Source: Paludibaculum fermentans (GTDB lineage Bacteria; Acidobacteriota; Terriglobia; Bryobacterales; Bryobacteraceae). From it: DNA of 64,000 bases. Of the stretch, positions 44,203-62,071 are shown piece by piece (the stretch's first letter is position 1; each line of letters opens with the position of its first letter). The DNA lies in contig NZ_CP063849.1 in assembly GCF_015277775.1 (NCBI RefSeq), positions 4,852,001 through 4,916,000 on the forward strand, written 5' to 3'. The position numbers and the translations under genes are program-made. The notes below the pieces were generated by a model. The model worked only from the letters and a program-made list of their open reading frames with translations, did no database searches and was not told the origin of the DNA.

Positions 44203-44215
44203 AGGAGACGTCACA

Positions 44216-48411: not shown

Positions 48412-50148
48412 TCACTGCGCCGGATGCAGCACCAGCCGCTCCAGGTTAATCGTGCCGCCGGATTTCGTATCCAGCCGCACACGAACTTCCGTGGCGCCCT
48501 GTTTCAGTTCCAGCTCACCCAGGGGCTGCGACTTGAACACCCAATCGCCGCCTGAGTTGATCGACGAGCCTGTCAACTTGGCCGGCCCGGCTTCCACGGT
48601 GAACGGCGTTCCGGCCTTTCTCGACGAATAGAAGGCCTCCACGCGGTAGCGGCCGGCCTTGGGCGCTTCCACCTTCCAATAAGGCACGTCCTTGTCGCGT
48701 GTCCAGCGTGTCAGAAACACATGGCCCAGCGCGTTCTCTTTCTTCGCCCGCTGCTCGAACTCGGTCTCGATTTCGCACGACTCCACACCCAGGCTGATCA
48801 GCCCCTTCGCATCCGGCCGGTTGGCGAACGGCACCGTCACGGGAGCCCCGTCCAGCGTCAGCTCCAACACGCTCGCAATCTCATCCGGAGCAGCGCCGGG
48901 CAGCGTCAGCAGAATGTCGTCGCCATCGCGCTTGGAGACAATTCTGCGAGACGGATCGGCTAGCAGCTGCGCCGAGTGCACCAGATTCCGCAAGCCCGCG
49001 ACGCGCAGCACGCCGTCCTTGGGCCAGTCGAAGATGTGCAGGTACAGCTTATTGCCCTTGGTGGTCGCGCGTCCGAAGAAGGACATGCGCTCGAACGGGC
49101 TCGCCGTGGTGTCGTAGATCGACTCCTGGTTCACTTTCATCCAGCGGCCCATGGCGTTCAACCGCGTCACAAACTCGTCCTGAATCGTGCCGTCCGGCTT
49201 TGGCCCTACATTCAGCAGCAGATTGCCGCCCTTGCTCACCACCTCCACCAGCATCCGGATCAGGTCCCGGTCCGTCTTGAACTCGGTTTCATACTTGTTG
49301 TAGCCCCACGAGTCGTTGTTGATCGTGACGCACGCCTCCCACAGGATCGGCTTGCCGCTGGGATCCTTGAAGCCAGTGGCCGGGACGTACTGTTCCGGCG
49401 TGCCGAAGTCGGCCTTATTGCCCGGCTTGCGCTCATACAAACGGTCGTTGATCAAGGTGTTCGGCTGCAGGCCGCGGATGAAGTCGTAGACCTCGTCGTC
49501 GCGTTTCGCCTCCGCCAGGGTGTGCTCCCACTCGCCGTCGAACCAGATCATCGCCACGTCGCCATAACCCGTCAGGAGCTCCTTCAACTGGGCCTTCATG
49601 AAGTCGATATACCGGTTGTTGTTGCCGCCTTCCTTGTAGTTCTTCGGATACTCCCACGAACGGCGCGGCCGGTAGTCAGGATGGTGCCAGTCCATGATCG
49701 AGTGGTAGAAGCCCAGGCGCATGTCCTTCTTCTTCGCCGCGGCCGCCAGTTGCTTCAGCGGGTCGCCCTGGTAGGGCGTCGTCTCCACGTCGTAGTCGCT
49801 CACCTGGCTGCGGTAGATGCTGAAGCCGTCGTGGTGCTTCGACGTGATCACCATGTACTTTGCCCCGGCGTTCTTGGCCAGATCCACCCAGGCATCGGCG
49901 TTGAACTTCACTGGATTGAACTGTTTGGCGTACACGTCGTAGTCGGCCTGCGGGATCTGGGCCATGGTCCGGATCCACTCGTGGCGCCCGATCACCGAGT
50001 AGGCACCCCAGTGAATGAACATCCCGAACTTGGCTTCGCGGAACCAGCGGGTGCGTTCTTCCGCGGAAAGCGGCGGCTGGGAAGGTTGGGCGAACGACAC
50101 TGACGTAGCGGCCAGCAGGGCCAGGGCGGCGAAGGAGGCGATCTTCAT
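48412..50148 (-). CDS. GH29 alpha-L-fucosidase, second copy
   Basis: The 578-residue enzyme starts at ATG 50148 with a Sec signal (MKIASFAALALLAATSVSFAQ). GH29 landmarks are WFREAKFGMFIHWGAYSV, VITSKHHDGFSIY, LGFYHSIMDWHHPDY and AMIWFDGEWEH, where the Asp is the nucleophile, plus VVSKGGNLLLNVGPKPDG. A C-terminal beta-sandwich (about residues 470-578) may bind carbohydrate. It is quite unlike the first GH29 enzyme in sequence and signal type, which points to different substrates or subfamilies. It is divergent from trxB. Confidence 0.94.
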   Translation of the reverse strand: MKIASFAALALLAATSVSFAQPSQPPLSAEERTRWFREAKFGMFIHWGAYSVIGRHEWIRTMAQIPQADYDVYAKQFNPVKFNADAWVDLAKNAGAKYMVITSKHHDGFSIYRSQVSDYDVETTPYQGDPLKQLAAAAKKKDMRLGFYHSIMDWHHPDYRPRRSWEYPKNYKEGGNNNRYIDFMKAQLKELLTGYGDVAMIWFDGEWEHTLAEAKRDDEVYDFIRGLQPNTLINDRLYERKPGNKADFGTPEQYVPATGFKDPSGKPILWEACVTINNDSWGYNKYETEFKTDRDLIRMLVEVVSKGGNLLLNVGPKPDGTIQDEFVTRLNAMGRWMKVNQESIYDTTASPFERMSFFGRATTKGNKLYLHIFDWPKDGVLRVAGLRNLVHSAQLLADPSRRIVSKRDGDDILLTLPGAAPDEIASVLELTLDGAPVTVPFANRPDAKGLISLGVESCEIETEFEQRAKKENALGHVFLTRWTRDKDVPYWKVEAPKAGRYRVEAFYSSRKAGTPFTVEAGPAKLTGSSINSGGDWVFKSQPLGELELKQGATEVRVRLDTKSGGTINLERLVLHPAQ

Positions 50149-50161
50149 GCTGCAAGGTATT

Positions 50162-50180
50162 CTATCGCCCACTGCGATAG
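50162..50180. promoter_or_regulatory. Seven-base inverted repeat between GH29 and trxB
   Basis: CTATCGC (50162-50168) and GCGATAG (50174-50180) form a perfect inverted repeat with a five-base centre. The divergent intergenic region is only 55 bases, so a protein bound here could affect both genes. Confidence 0.45.
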
Positions 50181-50203
50181 CATGGGATTTCCAGGTACAT
50201 TGC

Positions 50204-51127
50204 ATGCGGAACGTTATCATCATCGGCTCAGGCTGCGCGGGGAATACCGCGGCTATCTATACCGCCCGGGCGGGCCTGGCCCCCCTCGTGATTGCCGGCC
50301 ACGAGCCCGGCGGCCAGCTTTCCATCACCACCGAAGTTGAGAACTTCCCGGGGTTTCCGGAAGGCATCATGGGGCCGCAACTTGTTGAAAACATGAAGCA
50401 GCAGGCCATCCGCTTCGGTGCCGAATACGTCTCCGGCAAGGTCGAGGAGGCCGACCTCTCAAAGCGTCCCTTCAGCCTGAAGATCGACGACGAATGGCAC
50501 GAGTGCCGCACCCTCATCGTCGCCTCCGGCGCCTCCGCCCGCTGGCTGGGCCTGCCCAACGAGCAGAAACTCATCGGCCACGGTGTCAGCTCCTGCGCCA
50601 CGTGCGACGGCTTCTTCTATAGAGGCAAGAAAATCATCGTGATCGGCGGCGGCGACTCCGCCATGGAGGAAGCCAACTTCCTCACTCGTTTCGGCGACGA
50701 GGTCACCCTGGTCCACCGCCGCGAGGAGTTCCGTGCCTCCAAAATAATGCTCGACCGCTGCAAGGCGAACCCGAAGATCAAGTGGCTCACCAACACCGTG
50801 GTCGAGGACGTGCTCGACATCGAGAAGGGCTACGTCGAAGCCGTTAAGCTGAAGAACACCAAGACCGGCGAAGCCTGGACCCAGGCGGTCGACGGCTTTT
50901 TCCTTGCAATCGGGCACATTCCGAACACACAACCCTTCGTCGGCCAGCTCGACCTTGACGAAGACGGCTACATCATCAGCCATGGGGGCGCCCGCACTAA
51001 TATCACCGGCGTCTTCCATGCCGGAGACGTGGAAGACCGCATCTACCGCCAGGCCATCACCGCCTCGGGCGCCGGCTGCAAGGCGGCCATCGAAGCCGAA
51101 AGATTCCTGGAAGCCGAAGGCCACTAG
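50204..51127 (+). CDS. trxB: Thioredoxin reductase
   Basis: The 307-residue flavoprotein reduces thioredoxin with NADPH. It has the FAD motif IIIGSGCAGNTAAIYTARAG (4-23), the redox-active CATC at residues 131-134, and the NADPH motif IVIGGGDSAMEEANFL. The starting frame extends back to 50015, but the ATG at 50204 directly precedes the FAD strand. It is followed 30 bases later by cysD, so reductant supply and sulfate activation may be co-transcribed; thioredoxin is the electron donor for PAPS/APS reductase. Confidence 0.94.
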   Translation: MRNVIIIGSGCAGNTAAIYTARAGLAPLVIAGHEPGGQLSITTEVENFPGFPEGIMGPQLVENMKQQAIRFGAEYVSGKVEEADLSKRPFSLKIDDEWHECRTLIVASGASARWLGLPNEQKLIGHGVSSCATCDGFFYRGKKIIVIGGGDSAMEEANFLTRFGDEVTLVHRREEFRASKIMLDRCKANPKIKWLTNTVVEDVLDIEKGYVEAVKLKNTKTGEAWTQAVDGFFLAIGHIPNTQPFVGQLDLDEDGYIISHGGARTNITGVFHAGDVEDRIYRQAITASGAGCKAAIEAERFLEAEGH

Positions 51128-51157: not shown

Positions 51158-52057
51158 ATGACGCGGTTGTCACACCTGCGCTGGTTGGAAGCCGAGAGTA
51201 TACACATCCTGAGGGAGACGGCCGCTGAGTTCCAGCGGCCCGTCCTGCTTTACTCCATCGGCAAGGACTCTTCCGTACTCGTCCGCCTGGCCCAGAAGGC
51301 CTTTCATCCCGCGGCTGTCCCGTTCCCCCTGCTCCACGTCGATACCGGCTACAAATTCGGTGAGATGATCGAATTCCGCGACCGGTTCTGCCGCGAACAG
51401 GGCCTGGACCTCCGCGTCCATAGTTCCCAGGAGTACATCGACGCTCCTGTTGATCCGTTCCGCCTCGGCACGTCCCGCTGCTGTGCCCAGCTCAAGACCC
51501 GGGCTTTGCTCGAAGCCCTGCGAGCGCTCGACGCCGATGCCGCCATCGGCGGTGCCCGCCGCGAAGAGGAGAAATCCCGCGCCAAGGAGCGCATCTTCTC
51601 CCACCGCGACGCGGCCGGCCAGTGGGATCCTCGCAACCAGCGCCCCGAACTCTGGAATCTCTTCAACAGCCGCCTCGACAAGGGCCAGAGCATGCGCGTC
51701 TTCCCGCTCTCCAACTGGACCGAAATCGATGTCTGGGAGTACATCGAGGCCGAGCGGATTCCCGTCGTCCCGCTCTACTTCGCCAAACCCCGGCCCGTCG
51801 TCGTGCGCGGCGGCGCGCTCATCCCCCTGGAGCACGACCTCGAACTGCTCGCGGGCGAGCACGTGGAAGAGCGCGTGTGCCGCATGCGCTCCCTCGGTTG
51901 CACCTACTGCACCGGCGCCGTCGAATCCACGGCCACAACCGTGCCCGAAATCATCGCCGAGTTGCAGGCCACGCGCCACTCCGAACGCCAGAACCGCGCC
52001 ATCGACCACGACCAGGAAGGCTCTATGGAGTTAAAGAAGCGCGAGGGCTACTTCTAG
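51158..52057 (+). CDS. cysD: Sulfate adenylyltransferase subunit 2
   Basis: The 299-residue ATP-pyrophosphatase-fold subunit makes adenosine phosphosulfate from ATP and sulfate together with CysN. The PP-loop SIGKDSS is at residues 33-39, and [11 protein letters not shown] and [18 protein letters not shown] are family signatures. It is the catalytic partner of the GTPase encoded 2 bases downstream. No cysH reductase is in the window. Confidence 0.96.
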
Positions 52058-52059
52058 CC

Positions 52060-53853
52060 ATGGAATCCACCCTCCTCCGTTTCACCGCCATCGGCAGCGT
52101 CGACGACGGCAAATCCACGCTCATCGGCCGCCTGCTCCACGACCAGAGCGCCGTCTACGACGACCAACTCGATTCCATCCGGCGCGTCTCCCGCGAAGGG
52201 CTGGACCTCGCCCTGATCACCGACGGCCTGCGCGCCGAACGCGAGCAGGGCATCACGATCGACGTCGCCTACCGCTACTTCTCCACGCCGCGGCGCCGCT
52301 TCATCATCGCCGACACTCCGGGCCATGAGCAGTACACCCGGAACATGGTGACGGGTTCCAGCACGGCCGATGTCGCGGTTGTCCTGATCGACGCCCGCCT
52401 CGGTGTCCTGCCTCAGACCCTGCGCCACACCTATCTCTCCTGGCTGCTCGGCATCCGCCGCATCTGCGTGGCAGTCAACAAAATGGACGCAGTCGGGTTC
52501 AACCAGTCCATCTTTGAATCCATTCGAGCCGCGCTGCTCCAGAAGACCTCCGGCCTGCCTGCCCTCGAACTCGCCTTCCTGCCGGTCTCCGCGCTTCAGG
52601 GCGACAACGTCGTCCACCGCGGCGCCAGCATGCCCTGGTTCGATGGCCCCACCCTGCTCGAATACCTCGAGACCGTTCAGCCCCCTCCGGCCCATCATTC
52701 CGGACTCCGCCTGCCGGTGCAGGCCGTCCTGCGCGGCGCAAATAGCGACCGCTTCTATGCCGGTCAGCTCTCCGGCGGCTCAGTCCAGCCCGGCGACCAG
52801 GTGTTGTTGCTGCCATCCGGCAAGTTCCAGCGCGTCGCTTCGGTCCGGCTGCGCGACGAGGCCCTCTCCTCCGCCGCCACGCCCATGTCAATCTCCGTCT
52901 CGCTCGACGGACATGTCGACCTCTCGCGCGGCGACATGATCGTCGACCCGCTCCATCCTCCGGCGTCCACGCGCCATCTCAAGGCAATCCTCTTCTGGAT
53001 GAGTTCGGACCCGCTCAGCAGCAGCAAGGCCTACCTGCTCAAACACACCACCCAGACCGTCTGCGCCGAGATCACATCCGTCGACGCCGCCCTTGATGTC
53101 GCCACCCTCCGCTTCGAGCCCAGTTCAGCGCTCGGCCTCAACGACATCGCACGGGTCACCCTCGAAACCCAGCGGCCCATCTACTGCGATCCCTACACCG
53201 CCAACCGCGCTACCGGCAGCTTCATTCTGGTGGACCCGGTATCCAACGGCACTATTGCCGCCGGCATCATCGAATCAGCGGAACAGCCGGCCGGCCCTTC
53301 GACACTCAGCCGTCCTGGCGACCATGCGGGCGGGGTCCTCTGGCTCACGGGCCTTAGCTCCTCCGGGAAGAGCACCCTCGCCGTCGTCATTCACCAGCGC
53401 CTCAAGGACCTGGGTTACCGCGTCGAGATGCTCGACGGCGACATCGTCCGAAAACACCTCTCCAAGGGCCTCGGCTTCAGCAAGGAAGATCGTGACGAGA
53501 ACATCCGCCGCATTGGCTTTGTCGCCGAACTGCTGGCCCGCAACGGAGTGGTTGCCATCGTCTCCGCCATCTCGCCTTATCGCGCCATCCGCGGCGAAGT
53601 GCGCGCGCGCATCGCCAACTTCATAGAGATCTATGTAAATGCGCCGCTTGCTATCTGTGAGCAGCGAGATGTCAAAGGGCTCTACCGCAGGGCCCGCACC
53701 GGGGAACTCAAAGGCATGACCGGCATCGACGATCCCTATGAGCCGCCTGTCGAACCCGAAGTGGAATGCCGCACGGACCTCAACGCCGTCGAAGCCTGCG
53801 TGGGCCAGGTGCTGCGCTACGCAGTCGACCGCCTGGACGGCCGCTCCGCCTGA
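52060..53853 (+). CDS. cysNC: Bifunctional sulfate adenylyltransferase subunit 1 / adenylylsulfate kinase
   Basis: The 597-residue fusion starts at ATG 52060. The N-terminal GTPase (CysN) has GSVDDGKST (12-20), DTPGHEQY and NKMD motifs and drives APS synthesis. The C-terminal APS kinase (CysC, from about residue 425) has the P-loop GLSSSGKST at 431-439 and the DGDIVRKHL motif, giving PAPS. The fused arrangement means APS is passed directly to phosphorylation. PAPS can serve assimilation or sulfation of glycans and lipids. It converges with the AlkP operon, with 7 bases between stops. Confidence 0.96.
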   Translation: MESTLLRFTAIGSVDDGKSTLIGRLLHDQSAVYDDQLDSIRRVSREGLDLALITDGLRAEREQGITIDVAYRYFSTPRRRFIIADTPGHEQYTRNMVTGSSTADVAVVLIDARLGVLPQTLRHTYLSWLLGIRRICVAVNKMDAVGFNQSIFESIRAALLQKTSGLPALELAFLPVSALQGDNVVHRGASMPWFDGPTLLEYLETVQPPPAHHSGLRLPVQAVLRGANSDRFYAGQLSGGSVQPGDQVLLLPSGKFQRVASVRLRDEALSSAATPMSISVSLDGHVDLSRGDMIVDPLHPPASTRHLKAILFWMSSDPLSSSKAYLLKHTTQTVCAEITSVDAALDVATLRFEPSSALGLNDIARVTLETQRPIYCDPYTANRATGSFILVDPVSNGTIAAGIIESAEQPAGPSTLSRPGDHAGGVLWLTGLSSSGKSTLAVVIHQRLKDLGYRVEMLDGDIVRKHLSKGLGFSKEDRDENIRRIGFVAELLARNGVVAIVSAISPYRAIRGEVRARIANFIEIYVNAPLAICEQRDVKGLYRRARTGELKGMTGIDDPYEPPVEPEVECRTDLNAVEACVGQVLRYAVDRLDGRSA

Positions 53854-53860
53854 TCTCGCC

Positions 53861-55951
53861 TTACTGCACGTAGCCCAGCGACTTCAGCCGGTCCACCGCT
53901 TCCTGGCCCATCCCTAGCTCCTGGTCGCCCGGTTTGATGTAGTTCTGCTGCCACGTCCTCAGCAGCCGTTCCAATTGCGCCGCCTGCTCCGGCTTGCTGC
54001 CCTGCACGTCCCGCGTCTCATTGGGATCCGCCGCCAGGTCGTACAACTCCCGCCGGCCCTTCGTCGTCAGCACCATTTTCAGCCCGCCCAGGTAGACGGC
54101 CCGCTCCACATCGATGAACCGCTCCTCCACGCCCCACTTCTGCCACAGCGCATACGACTCCGCATACACCGGCCGCGCCGCAAGCTTGTCGGCTTTGCGC
54201 AATGTGATCCCCGCCAGCCGCCGCGGCACCGGCGCGCCCAGCACGTCCAGCACGGTTGGAAACAGGTCCACCAGGCTCACCGTCACCGCTACGTCCTGCC
54301 TCGCCTTCTGCCCCGGATACTTCACAATCAGTGGCACATGCACCTGATCCTGGTACACCGATACCCCATGCTCCATCAGCGACCGCTCGCCAAAGACCTC
54401 GCCGTGGTCCGCCGAGACGATAATCAGCGAGTTGTCGAACAGCCCATTCGCCCGCAACATCTGGAACAGCCGGCCCAACTCGTGATCCACATACGCGATC
54501 CCGGAGTCGTAGGCAGCCACCAGTTCTTCCCGCTCCTGGGGCGTCACCACCCGCTTCTCCTGGTCCACAAGCTTCACGATTTCGTAGAACTCCGCGCTGG
54601 TCCGGTCCTTGGTGGGTGTCATGAACCGGTTCTTGAAGGGCGGTGGCGGGTTGTAGGGCCAATGCGCGTCCATCAGGTTCAGGAAGAGGAATTCCGGCCG
54701 GCCACGCTTCCACTTGGGCAGCAACTTACCCACCTCGTCGGCGATCTTAGCGCCCGGCACATAGGGCGTGTCCGCACCACTGATCCCCATCAGGTGGAGC
54801 CGCGTCGAACGCAACACGGAAGGCATCCGGCTGGTCTCCAGCGATACCGGAGTCGTTGGAACCCGGTACAGGTCGAACCCGCGCCCGAACCCGATCTCGG
54901 GAGCCAGGTAGGCTTTGTTCGCCACTATGGCGGCCGTCCGGTAGCCATAGTGCTGCAGGGTCTCGGCCAGCGTCGGCGCCGATTGAGGAATGTGCCCCAG
55001 CCGCACGTCCGGATAGTCATACCGCACACCGTGCCGCAGTGCGTAGAGGCCCGTCATCATCGTCGCGTGGCTGGGCGCGGTCCAATCCGCCGCCGAAATC
55101 GCGCCGCTGTATACCGTCGCCTGCCGTGCAAATTCCTCCAATTGCGGGGTCGTCTGCCTTGGATACCCGTACAGGTGCAGATGGTCCGCCCGCACCGTAT
55201 CCAGGGTGATGAGAATGACATTCGGACGCCCGGCCTGTGCGCCTTCCGCCGGCGGTCCCGGCAGCGACACCCGGGCCCTCAGCCCAAACCCCAGCACCAC
55301 CGCAGCCGCCACAATCCACACCGATGCAGTCACCGCGAATCGCGAACCCCAGCCCGCCGGCTTGCCCCGGAATAGCAGCCACGACAGGGCCAGCACGGCC
55401 AGAAACGCGAGCGACGAAAACGAAATCTGGACCAGCGCATTGCCCTTCGGCAGGACGTAGAAGTACATCCAGGGCCGCAGCAATACAGCGACCGTCAGCG
55501 TCACCGGATTCATCAGGAACCAGGTCCAGCGCGACCACCGTGCGCTCCACCCGGCCACCAACCCCGCGGCAATCAGCCCCGCCGGCACCGCCAGCGCCAG
55601 CACTGTCGGCACCAGCCCTTGCGACCGCCGCGCCAGCACATACCCGAACACCAGCAGCACCGTGAGGCCGGCGCTGCGCGTCATGCGTGCTTCCGCCTCT
55701 TCCGCGTTCCTGGGCTGCCCGGCCAGAAACCAGATCCCTGCGCCCGCCGCCGACAACAGCGGACCGCAGACCAACCAGACCAACAGAGCCTCGACGCCCG
55801 CCAGCCAGTACTCCGGGTAGGGCACCGTGCCCTCCGGCCGCAGCCACTCCGAAACCGCATCCGCCAGCGCATACTCCACCGCACCGTAGAAGGCCCAATA
55901 CACCAGGCCCCACCACAATGCCCTGCGCCAGTAGAAAACCGCCGGATTCAT
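53861..55951 (-). CDS. Membrane-bound sulfatase-like AlkP-superfamily protein with Thr nucleophile position
   Basis: The 696-residue protein starts at ATG 55951 with GAGGTGG ahead. About six membrane helices (residues 1-230) precede an extracytoplasmic alkaline-phosphatase-superfamily domain. Metal ligands are probably Asp251 (ITLDTVRADH) and Asp515-His516 (SADHGEVFGE). The nucleophile site reads DWTAPSHATMMTG: Thr291 sits where sulfatases need a Cys or Ser for formylglycine, and the following Arg of C-x-P-x-R is His. It is therefore more like a Thr-dependent phosphotransferase or phosphodiesterase such as LtaS/EptA than a true sulfatase. It ends in RLKSLGYVQ. It is the last gene of the AlkP operon. 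Confidence 0.85.
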   Translation of the reverse strand: MNPAVFYWRRALWWGLVYWAFYGAVEYALADAVSEWLRPEGTVPYPEYWLAGVEALLVWLVCGPLLSAAGAGIWFLAGQPRNAEEAEARMTRSAGLTVLLVFGYVLARRSQGLVPTVLALAVPAGLIAAGLVAGWSARWSRWTWFLMNPVTLTVAVLLRPWMYFYVLPKGNALVQISFSSLAFLAVLALSWLLFRGKPAGWGSRFAVTASVWIVAAAVVLGFGLRARVSLPGPPAEGAQAGRPNVILITLDTVRADHLHLYGYPRQTTPQLEEFARQATVYSGAISAADWTAPSHATMMTGLYALRHGVRYDYPDVRLGHIPQSAPTLAETLQHYGYRTAAIVANKAYLAPEIGFGRGFDLYRVPTTPVSLETSRMPSVLRSTRLHLMGISGADTPYVPGAKIADEVGKLLPKWKRGRPEFLFLNLMDAHWPYNPPPPFKNRFMTPTKDRTSAEFYEIVKLVDQEKRVVTPQEREELVAAYDSGIAYVDHELGRLFQMLRANGLFDNSLIIVSADHGEVFGERSLMEHGVSVYQDQVHVPLIVKYPGQKARQDVAVTVSLVDLFPTVLDVLGAPVPRRLAGITLRKADKLAARPVYAESYALWQKWGVEERFIDVERAVYLGGLKMVLTTKGRRELYDLAADPNETRDVQGSKPEQAAQLERLLRTWQQNYIKPGDQELGMGQEAVDRLKSLGYVQ

Positions 55952-55964
55952 CGCCTGTCCCACC

Positions 55965-56789
55965 TCAGAACACCACACCGAAGCGCCGTTTCAACAACAG
56001 CGCCACCGGCATCGAAATCAGCATCAGCGCCCAGAGCCAGTGCATCGACAGACCGAACAGCGGCACTTCAGCGGACGGGTACTCAATCTCGGCCCATTCC
56101 ACCCGGCCATCCGGCAGCCGGCTCTCGCCCGGATGCAACCAGAGACTCATCGCGGCAGCCACCCGCCGCGCATCCACCGGACGCCGCCGCCCGCCAGTCT
56201 CAATCCGTTTCTCCACCTGGCCCCAGGAAAACTCCGCCCGCAGGATTCCGGCGCTCTCGCCAGTGGCCCGGATCCGCCACACTACGCTCTGCTCAGCTTC
56301 CACCCGGACCGCCGGCGTCTCTACTTCGATCCCCGCGGGCGCAACCAACCGGGGCGTACTGCCGCCCGTATCCACGGGCCGGTCCAGATGGACCGTAAAC
56401 AGCGCCGTCTCCCCGATCTTCAGCGGACTCTGCCCGTAATACCGTTCCATCTGCGCCAGCAGCGGCCACAGCGCGACGCTCGCGCAAGCAATCGGGACAG
56501 CCATCCAGAACAGATACCCGGCATTGGCCAGTAAAAGCCTTCCCTGCGCTCCAAACACCAACGCGGGCTCGTCCGAGAACAGCCGCATCTCCATCAGGTA
56601 CGCGCGCAGCAGACTCTTTGAACGCTCAATCCGCTTCGGGCTCGACGTATGCCGGAATACGAACAGCATCACCAGCGCGGCCGACACGGCCAGCGGAGTC
56701 ATACTCACCCAAGGCGGCAGCCCGCCCGTCAACGCCGCATAGGCGTCGAACAGGCGGCTCAAGCCGAGATTGATCCACTCCACCAGCAT
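55965..56789 (-). CDS. Membrane protein of unknown function in the AlkP operon
   Basis: The 274-residue protein has helices near residues 27-47 and 90-110 and a C-terminal one near 250-268. A beta-rich extracytoplasmic part of about 130 residues lies between the second and third (IGETALFTVHLDRPVDTGGSTPRLVAPAGIEVETPAVRVEAEQSVVWRIRAT), resembling an Ig-like fold. I do not recognise a family. It is 9 bases downstream of the RHH gene and 13 bases upstream of the membrane AlkP gene, so it almost surely works with them. Confidence 0.75.
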   Translation of the reverse strand: MLVEWINLGLSRLFDAYAALTGGLPPWVSMTPLAVSAALVMLFVFRHTSSPKRIERSKSLLRAYLMEMRLFSDEPALVFGAQGRLLLANAGYLFWMAVPIACASVALWPLLAQMERYYGQSPLKIGETALFTVHLDRPVDTGGSTPRLVAPAGIEVETPAVRVEAEQSVVWRIRATGESAGILRAEFSWGQVEKRIETGGRRRPVDARRVAAAMSLWLHPGESRLPDGRVEWAEIEYPSAEVPLFGLSMHWLWALMLISMPVALLLKRRFGVVF

Positions 56790-56798
56790 GAATCCGCG

Positions 56799-56990
56799 CT
56801 AATCCAGGTAACCCAGGCCCTTCAACTTCTTCGCGATCTCCTCGTCGGAATCAGAGGTCTCGATGCGGGCCAGTTCGCGCTCCAGCACGTGCTCCACAAA
56901 CTCCTGCACCGACGAATACCCGCCCGCCTCCGCGCATCGCTTGACCCGCTCCGCGAGCTCTTTCTTCAGCTTGATCGAGGTTGAAAACAT
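56799..56990 (-). CDS. Ribbon-helix-helix protein in the AlkP operon
   Basis: This 63-residue protein has the RHH pattern: beta strand FSTSIKLKKELAERVKRCAEAGGYSSVQEFVEHVLERELAR. Such proteins bind DNA as dimers and regulate transcription, often as antitoxins, but no toxin gene is adjacent. The C-terminal tail ends KKLKGLGYLD, which echoes the RLKSLGYVQ end of the membrane AlkP protein of the same operon. It lies 18 bases downstream of the AlkP lipoprotein and may be an autorepressor, or a protein-binding module that has lost DNA binding. Confidence 0.8.
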   Translation of the reverse strand: MFSTSIKLKKELAERVKRCAEAGGYSSVQEFVEHVLERELARIETSDSDEEIAKKLKGLGYLD

Positions 56991-57008
56991 AACAATTTCC
57001 CCAGTCTC

Positions 57009-58907
57009 TCAGAACATCGGATGGCCCGTCATCGCCGCGGGCACCGCCACTCCGAACTGTTTCAGGATCGTCACCGGCACGTCGCGCAGATGTGGTTTCT
57101 CCAGCGCCGGCTTCCGGTTTGTGAACAGTACGCCCGGCACAAACTCCGGATCGATGCAGTGATCCGCCAGCCACGCCTCTTCATTTGGAACGATGATCCG
57201 TTCCGGCACCGCGCCCAACGCGGTCTGCCAGCTCGCCCGGTAGCCCGGCTCGTACCCCACCACCAGATCCGGCGCGTAGCCCGGCAGCTTGCCCGTCGCC
57301 ACCTGCGCCGCCGTGTAGACCGCCTTCACGACAGCCTTCCCTGTCTGCGGATCCCTCAGCGCCAGCAGGCGCTCGCTGATCTTCCGCAACACCGCCTGGC
57401 TATCCTCACCCGGAGCGACCGCCCCATTCGGCTCCCGGCCCGCCAGGTTCAGGTAGATCTCGTTGAGCCCCAGGGCGTAAGCCTGTGTCCGCGACCAGTC
57501 GACATTCGCGAACAACTCCTCATCCCCGCGCTTGCTGCCGTCGATCAGCTTCAGCAGTCCTTCCTGTTCCAGCCAGGAATTCAGGTGCACCGCCCGGTCG
57601 AACGTCGAGAAGCCGTGATCCGACATCACCACCAGCGTCCCATCCGAACCCAGTTTCGCCATCGCCAGCCCCACCGCTTCGTCGACCCGCTGATAGATCC
57701 GGGCCAACTCCTCGTCATAGCGGCCCCACAGCACGTGCGCGTGCTGGTCGATGCTCGAAAAGTAGTAGAACATCAGCCCATCTTCATACCGGTCCAACTC
57801 ATGACGAAACAAAGCCATGTTGTCGTCCAGCACCTGCCCGGCCTGCTGCAGGAACTCCGCATGGCTCAGCGAGTGCGCGCGCAGCGCCGACGTATCCTCG
57901 GCGATCCCCTGCGTGTAGAAAGGACCCACCGCACCAGCCAGCGTCCCGCTGAACTCCTTGGGCGTGGAGATGGGCAGGGCCGGTTCCCGTGGATCCATAT
58001 TCACGGGGCTCAGGTAAACTTCCAGCGAAGGCGTCACCCGGCGCAGCAGAACCCTCGCGATGCCGCGCGCCTTGGCCGCCGGACCCAGCAGCGAAAACTC
58101 CAGCCGGAACCAGGGTGACCACTCCCCGGCGCGGAGCGCAAACCGTTGCCCGCCGGCGGAAATCAAGGCCGTACCTGTACCCTCGTCCACATCCACGGTC
58201 AGTTCGGCCGTCGAGAGTGGATGGCTGCGCCGGAATCCGTTCACCGGCCCCTCCACCGTCAACACCGCGCGCCGCCCCTGCATCTTCACCGGAACAATCC
58301 GGCCGCCTGGTACCGTCCGCTCTACCGCCCCTAGCTCAGACGTGAACGTCGTGAATGTCCCGTAGCCGCCCTGCAGGTCCGGCGTACCCATGCCCGCCAG
58401 GCTCTCCCCCGGAAACTCGACCGGAGGGAAGTTCACCGGCATGCGCAGGATCCGCGCCGGCACCCCGTGCGCGCCCAGCAGAGTCCAGAACGCCGCCCCC
58501 TGCCGCAGGTTGCGCACCTGGCCGGATTCCAGCGGCAGGATCCACGGCCCCAGCGCGAACGTGCGCCGGGCCTCCAGCACTTCCGCCATCGAAGAGTAAG
58601 GCGTAATCGTCGCCGCGTCCCTGTGTACGAAGTCGAAGATCCCGTGCCCGCCCGGATCCAGGCCCGTAATCACGGCCGACCAGGCCACCGGGCTCTGCGG
58701 GGGATTTGTCGTCGCCAGGCGCTGGAATCCACCCTGCCGCCGCAACCGGTCCAGGTTCGGCAGCAGCGCCCAATGCTTCTCGACAAAGACCGGATCCATG
58801 CCGTCCACGCCCAGCACAATCATCCGCGGATGCTTCGCTCTTTCTTTGGGCGCACTGCAACCCCAACAGCCCAGGACCACCGCCAACAACAGCCAGCCCG
58901 GTCTCAT
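57009..58907 (-). CDS. AlkP-superfamily phosphodiesterase-like lipoprotein
   Basis: The 632-residue protein starts at ATG 58907 with a lipobox (VVLGC, Cys14). The domain belongs to the type I phosphodiesterase/nucleotide pyrophosphatase-like group: VLGVDGMDP (metal ligand Asp35), QSPVAWSAVITGLDPGGHGIFDF with Ser72 at the nucleophile position, DQHAHVLWGRYDEEL and MSDHGFSTF. It would hydrolyse or transfer phosphate esters on the outer face of the inner membrane or in the periplasm. The ATG overlaps the previous stop (ATGA). It is a paralogue of the next gene upstream, sharing the whole layout. Confidence 0.88.
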   Translation of the reverse strand: MRPGWLLLAVVLGCWGCSAPKERAKHPRMIVLGVDGMDPVFVEKHWALLPNLDRLRRQGGFQRLATTNPPQSPVAWSAVITGLDPGGHGIFDFVHRDAATITPYSSMAEVLEARRTFALGPWILPLESGQVRNLRQGAAFWTLLGAHGVPARILRMPVNFPPVEFPGESLAGMGTPDLQGGYGTFTTFTSELGAVERTVPGGRIVPVKMQGRRAVLTVEGPVNGFRRSHPLSTAELTVDVDEGTGTALISAGGQRFALRAGEWSPWFRLEFSLLGPAAKARGIARVLLRRVTPSLEVYLSPVNMDPREPALPISTPKEFSGTLAGAVGPFYTQGIAEDTSALRAHSLSHAEFLQQAGQVLDDNMALFRHELDRYEDGLMFYYFSSIDQHAHVLWGRYDEELARIYQRVDEAVGLAMAKLGSDGTLVVMSDHGFSTFDRAVHLNSWLEQEGLLKLIDGSKRGDEELFANVDWSRTQAYALGLNEIYLNLAGREPNGAVAPGEDSQAVLRKISERLLALRDPQTGKAVVKAVYTAAQVATGKLPGYAPDLVVGYEPGYRASWQTALGAVPERIIVPNEEAWLADHCIDPEFVPGVLFTNRKPALEKPHLRDVPVTILKQFGVAVPAAMTGHPMF

Positions 58908-61054
58908 CCCTGCGCCTCGGGCACCACACCGAATACAGCCGTCCCTTCCATCCACGCCGGCTTCGCCACGCCAAACAGGTGCAGCGCCGTCGGAGCCATG
59001 TCCTCAATCCCCGGATCCATCGCGTCCACCGCACGGTTCGAGAACAGCACACCCGGCACCAGCACCGGATCGATACAGTGATCGCCGCTCCACGCCTTCG
59101 TGTTATCCGAGAAGATCTCTTCGCTGGTCTTGCCCAGCGCCGCGTCCCACGAACTGCGGTAGCCGTCGCTGAAGCCCACAATCAGATCCGGAGCCGCATT
59201 CAAATAGGGCCCTTTGTAGATCTTCCCCGCCGTGTACACCTGCTGGATCGCCACCGCGCCATCCGCCGGATCGCACAGCCCGCGCAGCTTCTCAGTCAGC
59301 TCCCGGCACAACTCCGCCGTCTCCGCGCCGCGCTCGACAACGCCGTTCGATTCCCGGCCCTTCTGGTTCACATACACGCCGGCCAGCCCGAAGGTGTAAG
59401 CCCGCGTCCTGCTCCAGTCGATCCCTCGCAGATACGCGCCGTCGCCTTCATAGCCCGGCTGCATCGCCAGGTAGCCGTTGTCGCGCAGCCAGGCGTTCAG
59501 GTTCACCCCGCGCCGGAATGCCCGGAACCCGTGATCCGACAACACGAAAATGGCGGTTTTGTCATCCACATAGCGCATCGCCCGGCCCACCAGGGCATCC
59601 ATCCGCTGGTACAACTGTTCGATCACCGCCGTATGCCGGCCCGCCGGCAGGCGCCCGTCGAGGTGACGAAAGAACATGTGTTGCACCCGGTCGCTGGTAT
59701 CAAATACACACGCCACCACGCCGCGCTTGGTGCGGTCCAGCGCATTGAAGAACATCGCCTCCCGTTCTTCCTGGATCGAATACGCCTGCGACAGGAACGC
59801 GTCCTCGTCAATCACGCCTTCGTTCAACGCCCAGGTATCTTCGGCCATGCCGACTGTCGCATAGCTGCCCAGCAGCTTCGCCAGATACGTCGCGTAGTAC
59901 GACGGGTGCGAGATGGGCAACGCCGGATTCTCGGGATCAATATTGATCGGCGTCACATACAGGCTGAACTCGGGCGTCGTTTCCGTGATCATCACCCGGG
60001 CAATGCCGCGCACCTTCACGCCCAGCGCCGCTGGAAACGCCAATTGCAGCCAGGGCGAATACTCATCCGGCTTCAGCGCGTGCTTCTGCCCGTCGATCTC
60101 CAACTCATACGCGCCACCGCGGGGCCGCAGTTCAAAGGGCAACTGCATCGCCGCCCCGCCCTCCACCAGTGAGTTCGCGGGCCCCCGCAGCACGCCGCGC
60201 AATCCCTCACCCGAGCGCTCCAGCGGATACCTGCTTCCGCTCTCATACGTAGCCTCGGCCACGCGCGTCGTGAACTGCGTAAAGCTCCCCTGTGTGCCCA
60301 GCAGGTCCGGCGTGCACATCGCCGACAGCAACCGGCCATTGAACTCTTCCGGCGGAAACGTGATCGGCACCCGCAGGATCGTCGACCCGATGCCGTGTTC
60401 GCCCAGAATCTTCCAGAACGTCTGGCTCTTGCGCCGCATCTCCACCATCGGGTTCGACAGCGGAATCCGGAAGCGGCCCAGCTTCAGGACCTTCGCCGGA
60501 CCGGATACGCGCGAACTCGACAGCTCCGGCAGATACGACTTCAAATTGCGGTTCAGGAAATCGAAGATGTTGTGGCGCGCCGGATTCACACCCGTCGCAA
60601 ACGTCGACCACGCGACGGGCGAAAGCGAGGGGAAAGTTGTTCGCAGGCGGCGGTAGCTGCCCTTGTCGCGCAACGCCGCCAGGTTCGGCAACTTGCCCTC
60701 GGCCATGAACCGTTCGGTCAGCACCGGGTCCAACCCATCCAGGCCCAGGAAGATCAGCTTGCGGACCCGCGCTTTGCGATATCCTTGCCGCCGGCGAACC
60801 AGGCTCCAGACCAGCCGCACCGGCCAGGCCACCAGGGACAGCAAGGTGAGGAAAAACGCCGAGATCATCGCCAGCAGCGAGCCCATGAACGCGAAGCCCG
60901 CGCCCGGCCCGACATAGGCGAACCCCCACCCGGCGCCCGGCATGGGCGGCGGCGCACACACCGCGGCCACAGCCAGGGCCAACAGGATCCAGGTTGCGGT
61001 CGAACTGCTGAGCCTGCGGGCCGGCGCCGGGATCAACCCGCGCCGCCTCATCAT
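58904..61054 (-). CDS. AlkP-superfamily phosphodiesterase-like membrane protein
   Basis: The 716-residue protein has two N-terminal helices (about 20-38 and 52-86) joined by a Gly-rich loop. The paralogous AlkP domain follows: IFLGLDGLDP (Asp106), SLSPVAWSTFATGVNPARHNIFDF (Ser145 position), SDRVQHMFFRHLDG and LSDHGFRAFRRG. It is anchored with its domain outside or partly so. It overlaps genes on both sides by 4 bases (61051-61054; 58904-58907), so three AlkP-superfamily genes are translated as one coupled block. The substrate is unknown; lipid-linked or nucleotide-linked phosphate esters are plausible. Confidence 0.88.
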   Translation of the reverse strand: MMRRRGLIPAPARRLSSSTATWILLALAVAAVCAPPPMPGAGWGFAYVGPGAGFAFMGSLLAMISAFFLTLLSLVAWPVRLVWSLVRRRQGYRKARVRKLIFLGLDGLDPVLTERFMAEGKLPNLAALRDKGSYRRLRTTFPSLSPVAWSTFATGVNPARHNIFDFLNRNLKSYLPELSSSRVSGPAKVLKLGRFRIPLSNPMVEMRRKSQTFWKILGEHGIGSTILRVPITFPPEEFNGRLLSAMCTPDLLGTQGSFTQFTTRVAEATYESGSRYPLERSGEGLRGVLRGPANSLVEGGAAMQLPFELRPRGGAYELEIDGQKHALKPDEYSPWLQLAFPAALGVKVRGIARVMITETTPEFSLYVTPINIDPENPALPISHPSYYATYLAKLLGSYATVGMAEDTWALNEGVIDEDAFLSQAYSIQEEREAMFFNALDRTKRGVVACVFDTSDRVQHMFFRHLDGRLPAGRHTAVIEQLYQRMDALVGRAMRYVDDKTAIFVLSDHGFRAFRRGVNLNAWLRDNGYLAMQPGYEGDGAYLRGIDWSRTRAYTFGLAGVYVNQKGRESNGVVERGAETAELCRELTEKLRGLCDPADGAVAIQQVYTAGKIYKGPYLNAAPDLIVGFSDGYRSSWDAALGKTSEEIFSDNTKAWSGDHCIDPVLVPGVLFSNRAVDAMDPGIEDMAPTALHLFGVAKPAWMEGTAVFGVVPEAQG

Positions 61055-61917
61055 CTCAGCTTGCCCTCGACAAACGGCACTTCGAACACCTTCTCATGGA
61101 ATATCGGACCGTGGCCGAAATAGCCATCTTCCCCGAACAACTCGCCATGATCCGCCGTGATCGTGACATAGGTGTTCTTCGGCAGCAGGTCGAACATCTC
61201 TTCCACGACATTGTCGATATACTTCACAGCCTTGATCTGCCGCGCCTGCAATTCCGCCAGCTTCTTGTCATCGAAGAACTTGTCCTTCTTCTTCAGCAAC
61301 TTGCCGCCCACCACCTCGTCATCCAGGTGTTTGAACACACCGTGCACACCGGAGATGCGCGGCCATTGGTCTGGCGGCTCCTGCGGCAGCGCGTACGGGT
61401 AATGGGTCTCCCCGACGTTCAGGATGTAGAAAGTGGGCTGCTCTTCGTGGAACCGCAACTCATGCACCATGGCCCGCATGTCATTGTGCTTGTCCATCAG
61501 GCGGTAGCTGTCGAAGCCTGTATTCAGCGGAGTCTTCGGATTCAACACCGGCAGCGACACCATCGCGTGCGTCTTGTAGCCCAGGGAGTCCTTCAGAAAC
61601 GTTGGCAGGTTCAGCCGGGGCACCAGCGACCGGAACGAGATGTCTTCCGCGCCCAACCGCTCGTTATAGCGGAGAATGTCGTGTTTGTAGTACTCCGAAG
61701 CGTACACATGCTTCGGGCTCGTGTGGGGCAGCAACCCCATCAGCAGGTTGTAGTGCGAGGGCGAGGTCCACGAGGCATACGACCATCGCTTCTCCACCTT
61801 GCCCAGACTGCGCATCACTTTCGGACGCGCTCTCACGAACGAGTCATACCGGCAGCTGTCCAGGATGATCAGCAGGTAGTTGTTCTGGGCTTTCCGGGCC
61901 GTGGGGGACTGCGCCAT
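61051..61917 (-). CDS. Short sulfatase-like AlkP-superfamily protein without signal peptide
   Basis: The product of about 288 residues starts at ATG 61917 (TTG 61926 is the longer option). It is half the usual size. Key pieces are LLIILDSCRYDSF (metal ligand Asp), SWTSPSHYNLLMGLLPHTSP (Thr at the nucleophile site with His replacing Arg), ILNVGETHYPYALP and ITADHGELFGEDGYFGHG. No signal peptide or membrane helix is evident, so it acts in the cytoplasm or at the inner membrane face. It is the first gene of the six-gene operon and overlaps the next by 4 bases. It shares the T-x-P-S-H site with the membrane member at the other end of the operon. Confidence 0.83.
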   Translation of the reverse strand: MAQSPTARKAQNNYLLIILDSCRYDSFVRARPKVMRSLGKVEKRWSYASWTSPSHYNLLMGLLPHTSPKHVYASEYYKHDILRYNERLGAEDISFRSLVPRLNLPTFLKDSLGYKTHAMVSLPVLNPKTPLNTGFDSYRLMDKHNDMRAMVHELRFHEEQPTFYILNVGETHYPYALPQEPPDQWPRISGVHGVFKHLDDEVVGGKLLKKKDKFFDDKKLAELQARQIKAVKYIDNVVEEMFDLLPKNTYVTITADHGELFGEDGYFGHGPIFHEKVFEVPFVEGKLR

Positions 61918-62071
61918 CTCAGGCAATCATAGCATCCGCACCCTTTGGCCCCGCCTCGCCGCCGCCCCCTCAAAACCAACCACACAGCCGCGAATCGGAC
62001 TTCCCTGTCTGATTGTGATATACCCAATCCAGTTCAGTTTTGTGTCTCATGTCGTCCGGAGGTACTCCGAC

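Follow-up and report, generated by a model that had tools for sequence, protein, structure and literature searches.

Why should four proteins of the alkaline phosphatase (AlkP) superfamily be encoded together with a ribbon-helix-helix (RHH) protein and a membrane protein in Paludibaculum fermentans, and which of these genes belong together? An earlier note on this locus had suggested a single pathway acting on a phospho- or glycolipid intermediate, with the RHH protein as local regulator. All coordinates below refer to the window, the whole stretch of 64,000 nucleotides of DNA that was analysed, and the genome that contains it is designated G000.

Organization of the operon

The listing of open reading frames (ORFs) in the window confirmed six closely packed genes, g1 to g6, on the minus strand, with a CysD-CysNC pair lying convergent to them on the opposite strand.

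61051..61926, minus strand: g1, short AlkP-superfamily hydrolase of 291 amino acids with T-x-P-S-H (PF00884)
58904..61054, minus strand: g2 (PDE1), AlkP-superfamily phosphodiesterase of 716 amino acids with SPVAWS (PF01663)
57009..58907, minus strand: g3 (PDE2), exported AlkP-superfamily phosphodiesterase, predicted lipoprotein, with SPVAWS (PF01663)
56799..56990, minus strand: g4 (RHH), ribbon-helix-helix protein of 63 amino acids (PF01402) with a COOH-terminal LKGLGYLD tail
55965..56789, minus strand: g5 (MEM), protein of 274 amino acids with three transmembrane (TM) segments, placed by profile matches in the Oxa1/YidC superfamily (DUF106/EMC3-like)
53861..55978, minus strand: g6, AlkP-superfamily protein of 705 amino acids with approximately seven TM segments and T-x-P-S-H (PF00884)
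51158..52057, plus strand: CysD-type ATP sulfurylase small subunit (PF01507; TIGR02039, 446 bits, cut-off 396.6)
52054..53853, plus strand: CysN-APS kinase fusion, CysNC (PF01583, 205 bits; PF00009)

The tight packing on one strand that the earlier note had described was borne out. The g1 and g2 genes overlap by 4 bases. The mechanical ORF for g3 is open to position 58955, and the ATG at 58907 gives a lipoprotein-like start and, as for g1 and g2, a 4-base overlap with g2. Gaps of 18 and 9 bases separate g3 from g4 and g4 from g5, respectively, and g5 overlaps g6 by 14 bases if a GTG start is taken. Scanning for consensus promoters revealed no promoter-like site at the operon, and terminator-like sites were not above those in shuffled sequences, so that these scans neither support nor oppose a single transcript. 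The window also contains an alpha-L-fucosidase gene. None of the six operon proteins matched a PADLOC model at an E value of 0.01, and an anti-phage defence reading of the operon was therefore dropped.

Conservation of a four-gene core

Synteny was compared at 40 phylum loci, drawn from the 75 genomes with a PDE1 match above 600 bits and chosen for strong matches and contig room, and at 73 named loci that remained after duplicates were removed from the best 80 of 532 matches; given this selection, both sets are biased to close relatives. Contigs already present in the genome set (L080, L120, L129, L133, L134, L135, and L136) were excluded from the locus counts. The unit found to be conserved was a four-gene core, PDE1-PDE2-RHH-MEM (g2 to g5), rather than all six genes as grouped in the earlier note. 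This core was complete at 38 of the 40 phylum loci (33 in the order PDE1-PDE2-RHH-MEM) and at 55 of the 73 named loci (from the best 80 of 532 matches). It reaches several phyla, including Dadabacteria, Calditrichota, and Poribacteria, with its order kept in many families, so that the refuting condition set in the earlier note, contiguity in this strain alone, was not borne out for the core. Apart from the window, two of the phylum and named loci (the latter from the best 80 of 532) were found to have the exact set of six genes in the same order and on one strand: L074, whose PDE1 is 95% identical to that of the window, and L078, where the sulfatase match is weak.

A PDE1 match above 600 bits was obtained in 75 of 297 phylum genomes, and PDE2 was present at 39 of the 40 phylum loci, which argues against a chance assembly of the gene set. 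After removal of G088, which had two partial matches containing stops, MEM was counted in 77 of the 297 genomes; PDE1 and MEM were found together in 73 genomes, PDE1 without MEM in two, and MEM without PDE1 in four. In G034, G083, G138, and G288, MEM adjoins PDE2 on a contig separate from that of PDE1. The core was incomplete at 20 of the 40 phylum and 73 named loci (the latter from the best 80 of 532), six of which are cut by contig ends. The other 14 loci have enough contig room yet lack at least one core gene: PDE1 stands alone, with the other three core genes absent, at seven (L052, L082, L098, and L100-L103), only PDE2 is absent at four, only MEM at two, and both RHH and MEM at one. A Sat-APS-kinase gene sits between g5 and g6 in L054 and L088. 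Further neighbour families common to several loci looked clade-specific.

AlkP-superfamily proteins and their predicted location

The assignment of four AlkP-fold proteins to two subtypes stood as the earlier note had it. Both g2 (114 bits) and g3 (115 bits) matched PF01663 (cut-off 23) and carry SPVAWS, and both g1 (40 bits) and g6 (181 bits) matched PF00884 (cut-off 25) and carry T-x-P-S-H. PDE2 is 40% identical to PDE1. Residues D106, S145, D455, H459, D507, H508, and H659 of PDE1 were invariant in alignments of 15 and 24 sequences; the metal ligands and nucleophile region of PDE1 presumably have the roles that we assign to them by analogy. Among solved structures, the PDE1 profile weakly matched ENPP1/2 (E values of 2e-4 to 3e-4).

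PDE1 has a signal-peptide-like start, a YVGPGAG motif, and one TM segment. The net charge after this segment was at least +3 in all 112 sequences carrying the motif, and this charge analysis suggests that the PDE1 catalytic domain probably faces the cytosol. A lipobox, Tat, or Sec/TM-type start was present in 83 of 97 PDE2 orthologues, with the catalytic domain of PDE2 probably facing outside. For g6, in which approximately seven TM segments were counted by eye, the catalytic domain is also predicted to lie, probably, outside. No export signal was seen in g1. The membrane anchoring proposed in the earlier note was retained for g2 and g6, with the g2 catalytic domain most likely cytosolic by charge. 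The graded set from cytoplasm to envelope in that note would be better described, from these predictions, as a pair on opposite membrane faces together with accessory paralogues.

Formylglycine (S1) sulfatases are characterized by the motif C/S-x-P-S/A-R. Inspection of the g1 and g6 sequences showed T-x-P-S-H instead of this motif, and g1 scored 70 bits against NF038075 (STM4013/SEN3800 hydrolase), below the cut-off of 250 bits. The g1 gene is lineage-limited, being present at one of the 40 phylum loci and 25 of the 73 named loci (from the best 80 of 532), and at all 14 loci that have five genes in order, among them the window, it is located directly upstream of PDE1 (named loci from the best 80 of 532). 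The g6 position is variable: several AlkP paralogues, g6 among them, are interchangeable there, and a SULF-class gene was present at 14 of the 40 phylum and 35 of the 73 named loci (best 80 of 532).

Profile similarity of MEM to the Oxa1/YidC superfamily

The MEM protein of the window, searched alone, gave no Pfam match. Profiles of MEM matched MJ0480 of M. jannaschii with E values of 8.3e-11 (A2), 2.1e-12 (A4), and 2.2e-9 (A9). MJ0480 was the only PDB match at E values up to 5 for A4 and A9 and the best PDB match for A2, with the other A2 match having an E value of 1.2. The likeness spans TM1, a coiled hairpin, and TM2; TM3 and its Trp are weakly collinear. PF01956 was matched by 21 of 61 aligned MEM members at E values up to 1, one of which exceeded the gathering score. 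A search of the window genome with PF01956 missed MEM and yielded one weak place, inside an AcrB-type gene. A single weak PF01956 match is no evidence alone, as this family also gives sub-threshold matches in E. coli and B. subtilis.

An AlphaFold model of MEM (pLDDT of 94.7, pTM of 0.85) comprised helices at residues 2-21, 26-48, 51-70, and 75-119, a beta region at 128-249, and a helix at 251-266. The order of elements in the model is short helix, TM1, helical hairpin, TM2, and TM3, and the three predicted TM helices with a hairpin between the first two correspond to the arrangement of DUF106/EMC3. A beta domain of approximately 120 residues lies between TM2 and TM3. From the model we infer the placement and sidedness of MEM in the membrane, with the hairpin cytosolic and the beta domain outside. 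In fold searches, the whole model was matched by its beta domain alone (best VIA Z of 6.3, rmsd of 2.3, 76 aligned), and the first 122 residues yielded generic helical proteins (Foldseek E value of 0.4 at best, VIA Z below 8). No Oxa1-superfamily chain was among the matches shown, which indicates neither relation nor its absence. The fold comparison thus did not confirm the Oxa1 relation, for which the evidence comes from sequence profiles and from the order of elements. As judged by profile, MEM is a member of the Oxa1/YidC superfamily in its DUF106/EMC3 branch.

Ordinary YidC was also present in 40 of 41 genomes, and a search for MEM on plasmids gave no match. In excerpts of published papers, the DUF106 branch is placed in archaea and EMC3, TMCO1, and GET1 in eukaryotes (PMC8675477, PMC8887752), YidC and DUF106 are described in prokaryotic membranes (PMC8890630), protein insertion is given as the best known role of the Oxa1 superfamily (PMC8887752), and insertases are stated to be able to scramble lipids (PMC10491306). 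A mention of DUF106 in a mycobacterial paper concerned a different family number and was set aside. If the relation of MEM is true, the branch of archaeal DUF106 and eukaryotic EMC3/TMCO1/GET1 would have bacterial relatives in a defined operon, which would bear on the origin of specialised Oxa1 members and on whether any of these transport lipids instead of proteins.

RHH protein and its COOH-terminal tail

The g4 protein matched PF01402 with 22.4 bits (cut-off 20.5), as expected of a CopG-type ribbon-helix-helix protein. Its score against ParD (TIGR02606) was 15.8 bits (cut-off 46.2), and its neighbours are AlkP enzymes and MEM, not a toxin; a toxin-antitoxin reading was rejected on both grounds. 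Also discarded were a likeness to the COOH-terminal domain of RNA polymerase alpha (E value of 0.14 or worse) and the best matches of the RHH profile, to designed helical proteins (E value of 8e-5), which were dismissed as chance.

A COOH-terminal L-x-x-x-G-Y-type tail, a pattern defined after the first cases were seen, was found in 100 of 100 RHH matches above 60 bits at the loci (named loci from the best 80 of 532). Thirteen of 19 extra RHH matches, in nine families, lie beside apsK, at up to 3.2 kb, or are fused to it. The 19 include matches upstream at the PDE1 locus itself in G001, G005, and G017 and one (G083:C5:136120) in which the match is confined to the tail half of the profile, and exclude a second match in tandem at the core of G059. 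An extra RHH-like copy in L186 has no tail. Similar residues are common at the ends of APS kinases and CysD, and the resemblance to the RHH tail could therefore be coincidence. The earlier view of RHH as a plain local regulator was not upheld, in that the tail and the extra copies fit a putative coupling or sensing part in sulfate activation as well as they fit a repressor.

Link to sulfate activation

In the window, the PAPS-making genes for CysD and CysNC adjoin the operon, and CysNC holds the only apsK match of G000 (a single TIGR00455 match). Of 41 genomes, 36 had apsK matches over the cut-off, at 38 places in all. Nine of these lie within 7.4 kb of PDE1, compared with approximately 0.2 expected by chance if genomes of 3.2-4 Mb are assumed and shared ancestry is ignored. 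In another 12 genomes, apsK either bears the RHH tail or is adjacent to an RHH copy or to a PDE3-type AlkP gene. Overall, apsK is found beside an AlkP phosphodiesterase gene or an RHH copy or tail in 21 of the 36 genomes and is linked to none of these in 15.

Genes for CysD, CysN, CysC, or Sat were nearby at 20 of 114 loci, the window included, with those for PAPS on the PDE1 strand in 17 of the 20; they were not found in the stretch examined at 94 of 113 loci, the window excluded. A CysQ-like gene (PF00459) was present at eight loci (named loci in all these counts from the best 80 of 532). Of 17 genomes with a sulfotransferase-family match at an E value below 1e-80, 14 have it no more than 8.1 kb from PDE1; the profile had been made from copies neighbouring PDE1 and is thus biased to their detection. 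In L175, L176, L177, L189, and L209, which are separate from the PDE1 locus, ATP sulfurylase and APS kinase have a PDE3-type AlkP gene between them or adjacent to them, and L179, L180, L194, and L198 show variants of this arrangement. A search of G000 with two P-loop sulfotransferase families, PF13469 and PF00685, gave no match at an E value of 0.001; a sulfotransferase fed by PAPS here, if any, would thus belong to another family. These neighbourhoods indicate that the module is tied to sulfate activation.

A candidate pathway and its alternatives

The joint conservation of the core and the nearby sulfate-activation genes point to an undescribed cell-envelope pathway, and the Oxa1/YidC relation of MEM and the sulfate link go beyond the earlier note. 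No described system of this composition was found in the titles and abstract openings of open-licence papers, in agreement with that note. Its idea of a common pathway gained support from the core being conserved as a unit; the phospho- or glycolipid chemistry did not. Our tentative interpretation, a reasonable possibility rather than a probable one, is that the operon forms the membrane part of an envelope pathway that depends on sulfate activation. The substrate of PDE1 would be a phosphodiester intermediate, lipid-linked or membrane-bound, at the cytosolic face. MEM, placed by profile in a superfamily that inserts proteins and is able to scramble lipids, would pass or position either this intermediate or a partner protein across the membrane. 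Processing would be completed outside by PDE2 and, in the window operon, by g6, with RHH coupling the module to APS/PAPS enzymes via its tail or by sensing their state. The g1 protein and PDE3-type enzymes, in which an export signal was not seen, would be accessory paralogues, and the product may be an envelope lipid or glycan that is sulfated or depends on activated sulfate in another way. Weighing against this interpretation are the 15 genomes in which apsK has none of the above links, the 94 loci at which CysD, CysN, CysC, or Sat genes were not found in the stretch examined, the opposite strand of the CysD-CysNC pair in the window, the lack of PF13469 and PF00685 matches in G000, the fold comparison of MEM, the 14 loci with contig room but an incomplete core, and the tailless RHH-like copy in L186.

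A bolder reading, which we regard as very doubtful, is that, in an undescribed activated-sulfate pathway, AlkP enzymes on both faces perform group transfer or release in place of classical P-loop sulfotransferases, with MEM as its membrane carrier, a lipid or headgroup scramblase, and RHH docking onto or reporting on APS/PAPS enzymes. The lack of PF13469 and PF00685 matches here, the position of AlkP genes, at other loci, between those for ATP sulfurylase and APS kinase, and the common L-x-x-x-G-Y tail are compatible with it. If true, it would give bacteria a second, EMC3/DUF106-like Oxa1 branch that is not a general insertase.

MEM might instead serve specifically to insert or assemble PDE1 and g6, the membrane enzymes encoded with it, as a biogenesis factor supplied by the enzyme cluster itself and with no part in lipid transport. 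Its Oxa1-superfamily relation, the membrane segments in PDE1 and g6, the co-occurrence of PDE1 and MEM, and four loci with PDE1 and MEM in which PDE2 is not nearby (named loci from the best 80 of 532) speak for this explanation. We nevertheless consider it unlikely, given that almost all of the genomes already have a normal YidC, that the outside beta domain of MEM would be left without explanation, and that MEM lies beside PDE2 and apart from PDE1 in the four genomes mentioned above, which ties MEM to the exported PDE2 as well. Nucleotide pyrophosphatases can hydrolyse APS, PAPS, or PAP, and the AlkP enzymes may do so to control the level of activated sulfate. The PDE3-type genes next to ATP sulfurylase and APS kinase fit this possibility, as do the inclusion of such pyrophosphatases in PF01663 and the weak reach of the PDE1 profile to ENPP1/2. 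It is quite improbable, however, in that PDE2 is exported to where APS and PAPS are not expected, MEM is given no role, and a CysQ-like gene is already present at the eight loci noted above.

Equally improbable in our estimation is scavenging of sulfur or phosphorus, in which exported hydrolases would free sulfate or phosphate from outside esters for assimilation by CysD/CysNC. Export of PDE2, the probable action of g6 outside, and the alpha-L-fucosidase in the window, which may recall degraders of sulfated glycans, are in line with scavenging, but g1 and g6 have T-x-P-S-H in place of the formylglycine motif, the linked APS kinase and sulfotransferase build rather than reduce, and PDE1 probably faces the cytosol. 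That the genes are functionally unrelated neighbours, kept by chance or shared ancestry, is extremely improbable: related genomes do inherit synteny from common ancestors, the presence of g1 and g6 varies, and some loci have PDE1 without the rest, yet the core order holds in many families belonging to several phyla, and PDE1 and MEM tend to be present or absent together.

The sulfate link in the proposed envelope pathway would provide a concrete handle on a product of the cell envelope in many Acidobacteriota, in Dadabacteria, and in other groups. It would also bear on the large AlkP families that are annotated merely as phosphodiesterase or sulfatase.

Comparison with known systems

Gene clusters for PAPS synthesis and a sulfotransferase exist in the form of nodPQ/nodH. 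The module resembles them in having ATP sulfurylase, APS kinase, a CysQ-like protein, and a P-loop sulfotransferase around it in many genomes, and differs from them in its AlkP pair, MEM, and tailed RHH, and in the lack of PF13469 and PF00685 matches in G000. Features in common with the type I phosphodiesterase/nucleotide pyrophosphatase family (PF01663) are the metal-ligand pattern D, D-x3-H, D-H, H and scores above the family cut-off. Differences are the SPVAWS nucleophile region, the pairing of paralogues predicted on two membrane faces, matches to solved structures that are no more than weak, and, as it appears from the Pfam match, an extended segment that separates the nucleophile from the second matched part. 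The g6 protein resembles EptA/MCR and LtaS in having several TM segments and an AlkP domain that is predicted to be outside, and it matches such profiles weakly; it differs from phosphoethanolamine transferases and lipoteichoic acid synthases in that the listed matches are all far below curated cut-offs and in its approximately seven TM segments. MEM has profile likeness (PF01956, MJ0480) and element order in common with the DUF106/EMC3/TMCO1/GET1 branch, whereas it is bacterial, occurs beside a normal YidC, contains a beta domain, and is genetically bound to AlkP enzymes.

Organization of the operon

The six minus-strand genes (g1–g6) are separated by 4-base overlaps or by gaps of 18 and 9 bases, and are flanked by a convergent CysD-CysNC pair and a divergent open frame. 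The earlier note had described them as encoding four alkaline-phosphatase-superfamily (AlkP) proteins, an RHH protein and a membrane protein; this composition was borne out by Pfam and NCBIfam scans, in which the membrane protein gave no match. The window (4,852,001–4,916,000 of a 9.5-Mb genome) has an even GC level of 0.60–0.66 in 2-kb steps, and the closest named relatives of the locus among the matches listed were Bryobacteraceae/Bryobacterales and other Acidobacteria assemblies.

Features surrounding the operon in the window
43057–47323, plus strand: HlyD-type membrane fusion protein and AcrB-type efflux pump
48412–50223, minus strand: alpha-L-fucosidase (PF01120)
listed from 50015, plus strand: pyridine-nucleotide-disulphide oxidoreductase open frame
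51158–53853, plus strand: CysD-CysNC pair, convergent with the six-gene block
from 61880 past the window end, divergent: open frame that by eye looks like a glycoside hydrolase

The starts of the fucosidase and oxidoreductase frames overlap, so that one of the two is probably internal.

Conservation of the core

The genes g2–g5, here PDE1, PDE2, RHH and MEM, constitute a conserved unit. PDE1 matches at E 1e-30 were present in 163 of 297 phylum genomes and exceeded 600 bits in 75 of these 297. The whole core was found at 38 of 40 phylum loci chosen among those 75 genomes, with the same order on one strand at 33, and at 55 of 73 named loci from the best 80 of 532 (in order at 39). Six of the 20 incomplete loci were truncated by contig ends; the other 14 had enough room, with PDE1 alone at seven, only PDE2 missing at four, only MEM at two, and both RHH and MEM at one. 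Judged by assembly title alone, the whole core also occurs in Dadabacteria, Calditrichota, Poribacteria, Omnitrophota, Planctomycetota, Phycisphaerae, Gemmatimonadetes, Thermodesulfobacteriota and Bacteroidota. Searched for separately in whole genomes, MEM was found in 77 (G088 left out), 73 of which were among the 75 PDE1 genomes; in the four MEM-only genomes, the PDE1 search gave weaker, PDE2-grade matches.

The outer members vary. At 14 loci, the window counted, g1 lies ahead of the in-order core. A g6-like gene of the SULF class, variable in position, was present at 14 of the 40 phylum loci and 35 of the 73 named loci (best 80 of 532), and a third AlkP-type phosphodiesterase, PDE3 (~430 amino acids, without an export signal), at 17 and 14 of the same sets, upstream of PDE1 at most loci that have it.

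Several individual arrangements were also observed. PDE2-RHH-MEM precedes PDE1 on the same strand at L047, L122, L124, L126, L145, L146 and L148, and at L081, L083, L106 and L110, where g1, PDE1, RHH and MEM are present, PDE2 was not found in the stretch examined. PDE1 is joined with upstream sequence in one long open frame at L059:8896–12372, and PDE1 frames of 1138–1167 amino acids occur in G170, G216, G231 and G272; all of these are possibly PDE3-PDE1 fusion proteins.

Association with sulfate activation

Open-frame families around PDE1 include CysD, CysN, CysC, Sat, CysQ-like (PF00459) and PF13469 sulfotransferase, and in many genomes the core is linked with sulfate activation. APS kinase (CysC) exceeded the cut-off at 38 places in 36 of 41 genomes, nine of these places being within 7.4 kb of PDE1, versus about 0.2 expected. 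In 12 further genomes APS kinase lay beside an RHH copy or a PDE3-type AlkP gene or carried an RHH-type tail (in G047 and G240 the tail was the sole link), and in 15 it showed none of these associations. Of 14 genomes having any CysD match, 7 have it no farther than 8 kb from PDE1, and the sulfotransferase family lies within 8.1 kb of PDE1 in 14 of the 17 genomes where its matches fall below 1e-80. Among 19 non-core RHH matches, 13 lay within 3.2 kb of, or were fused to, an APS kinase (9 families), three of them upstream at the PDE1 locus itself. A recurring layout, in which the AlkP phosphodiesterase has ~460 amino acids, no export signal and, in those inspected, ITIPAW and ENDTGPDDAVH motifs, was found at five loci.

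RHH (LGY tail)–Sat–AlkP–CysC operons apart from the PDE1 locus
L175:3521–7056
L176:6216–9794
L177:5749–9196
L189:5901–9445
L209:6262–9797

The single APS kinase of the window's genome is the one beside the operon, and a search of that genome for PF13469 and PF00685 found no sulfotransferase of either family. A second CysD-CysN set in this genome (L190:7269–10642; G000:C1 near 6.756 Mb) precedes a CysH-like reductase that has an ECGLH motif; this set is probably the assimilatory one.

A shared C-terminal tail

Among matches above 60 bits, a C-terminal [LFM]-x-x-x-G-Y pattern was present in 100/100 RHH, 4/4 Sat-linked-type RHH, 6/7 CysD, 3/7 CysC, 20/68 SULF and 2/12 Sat-kinase proteins. It was absent from sulfotransferase (0/26), PDE1 (0/114), PDE2 (0/101), PDE3 (0/32), G1 (0/27), CysQ (0/8), CysN (0/7) and MEM (0/99) matches, and occurred in 6 of 4063 other open frames, many of them spurious. 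This distribution suggests a docking element that is shared, although such C-terminal residues also occur in CysD and APS kinases in other settings.

APS kinases ending in the RHH-type LGY tail lie at L178:6425–7159, L188:6234–6971 and L179:5443–6237, those of L178 and L179 with a weak RHH-profile match at the C-terminal end. L186 carries one additional RHH-like copy outside the core, without the tail.

Predicted membrane topology of PDE1 and PDE2

Export and topology were called with crude sequence patterns, including our own Tat pattern, not with trained predictors. PDE1 carries a conserved YxGPGAG motif at 112 of 114 loci. N-terminal to the motif is a signal-like stretch, with an AxA-like pattern at -3/-1 in 87/112; beyond the motif come a single TM segment and then a basic stretch with a median of 8 Lys/Arg and 0 Asp/Glu (net charge at least +3 in 112/112). 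Given this basic stretch, the positive-inside rule would place the PDE1 catalytic domain in the cytosol. The 97 PDE2 starts comprised 48 with a lipobox, 13 with a Tat motif, 22 with a stretch of Sec or TM type, and 14 that matched none of the patterns, several of these resembling Tat signals. PDE1 and PDE2 thus probably act on opposite membrane faces.

MEM as a probable Oxa1-superfamily relative

MEM is very likely a relative of the Oxa1 superfamily. Profiles built from 8, 61 and 22 sequences, the last solely from the window's lineage, matched MJ0480, an archaeal YidC-like DUF106 protein, at E 8.3e-11, 2.1e-12 and 2.2e-9, respectively; the sole other match of the first profile had E 1.2, and for the other two MJ0480 was the only chain at E ≤5. 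TM1, a helical hairpin and TM2 were aligned, and a second, weak match aligned TM3 and its Trp in the correct order. PF01956 (EMC3_TMCO1) was the commonest Pfam match of singly scanned MEM members (21/61 at E ≤1, best 3.8e-7); a detailed scan of ten placed one above the gathering score and five below, with four giving no match. In the AlphaFold model, which is of high confidence, the elements follow the expected order, and a beta domain separates TM2 from TM3. Fold searches spoke neither for nor against the relation; run with the whole model, they matched it only by its beta domain.

Oxa1-superfamily insertases are described, at abstract level, as scrambling lipids in vitro (PMC10491306). The earlier note had proposed a shared pathway, and we tentatively infer one leading to a sulfate-dependent envelope product, in which a lipid-linked intermediate would be processed by PDE1 and PDE2 and moved by MEM. 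Against this stand the readings of MEM as a dedicated insertase, and of the system as serving APS/PAPS turnover or scavenging. An ordinary YidC accompanies the MEM module in 40 of 41 genomes.

The DUF106/EMC3 branch is treated as archaeal and eukaryotic in passages of PMC8675477 and PMC8887752, and DUF106 is placed in prokaryotic membranes in PMC8890630; titles and abstract openings of the open-licence literature searched named no bacterial member of the branch. Compared with that branch, MEM adds, in its predicted structure, the beta domain between TM2 and TM3.
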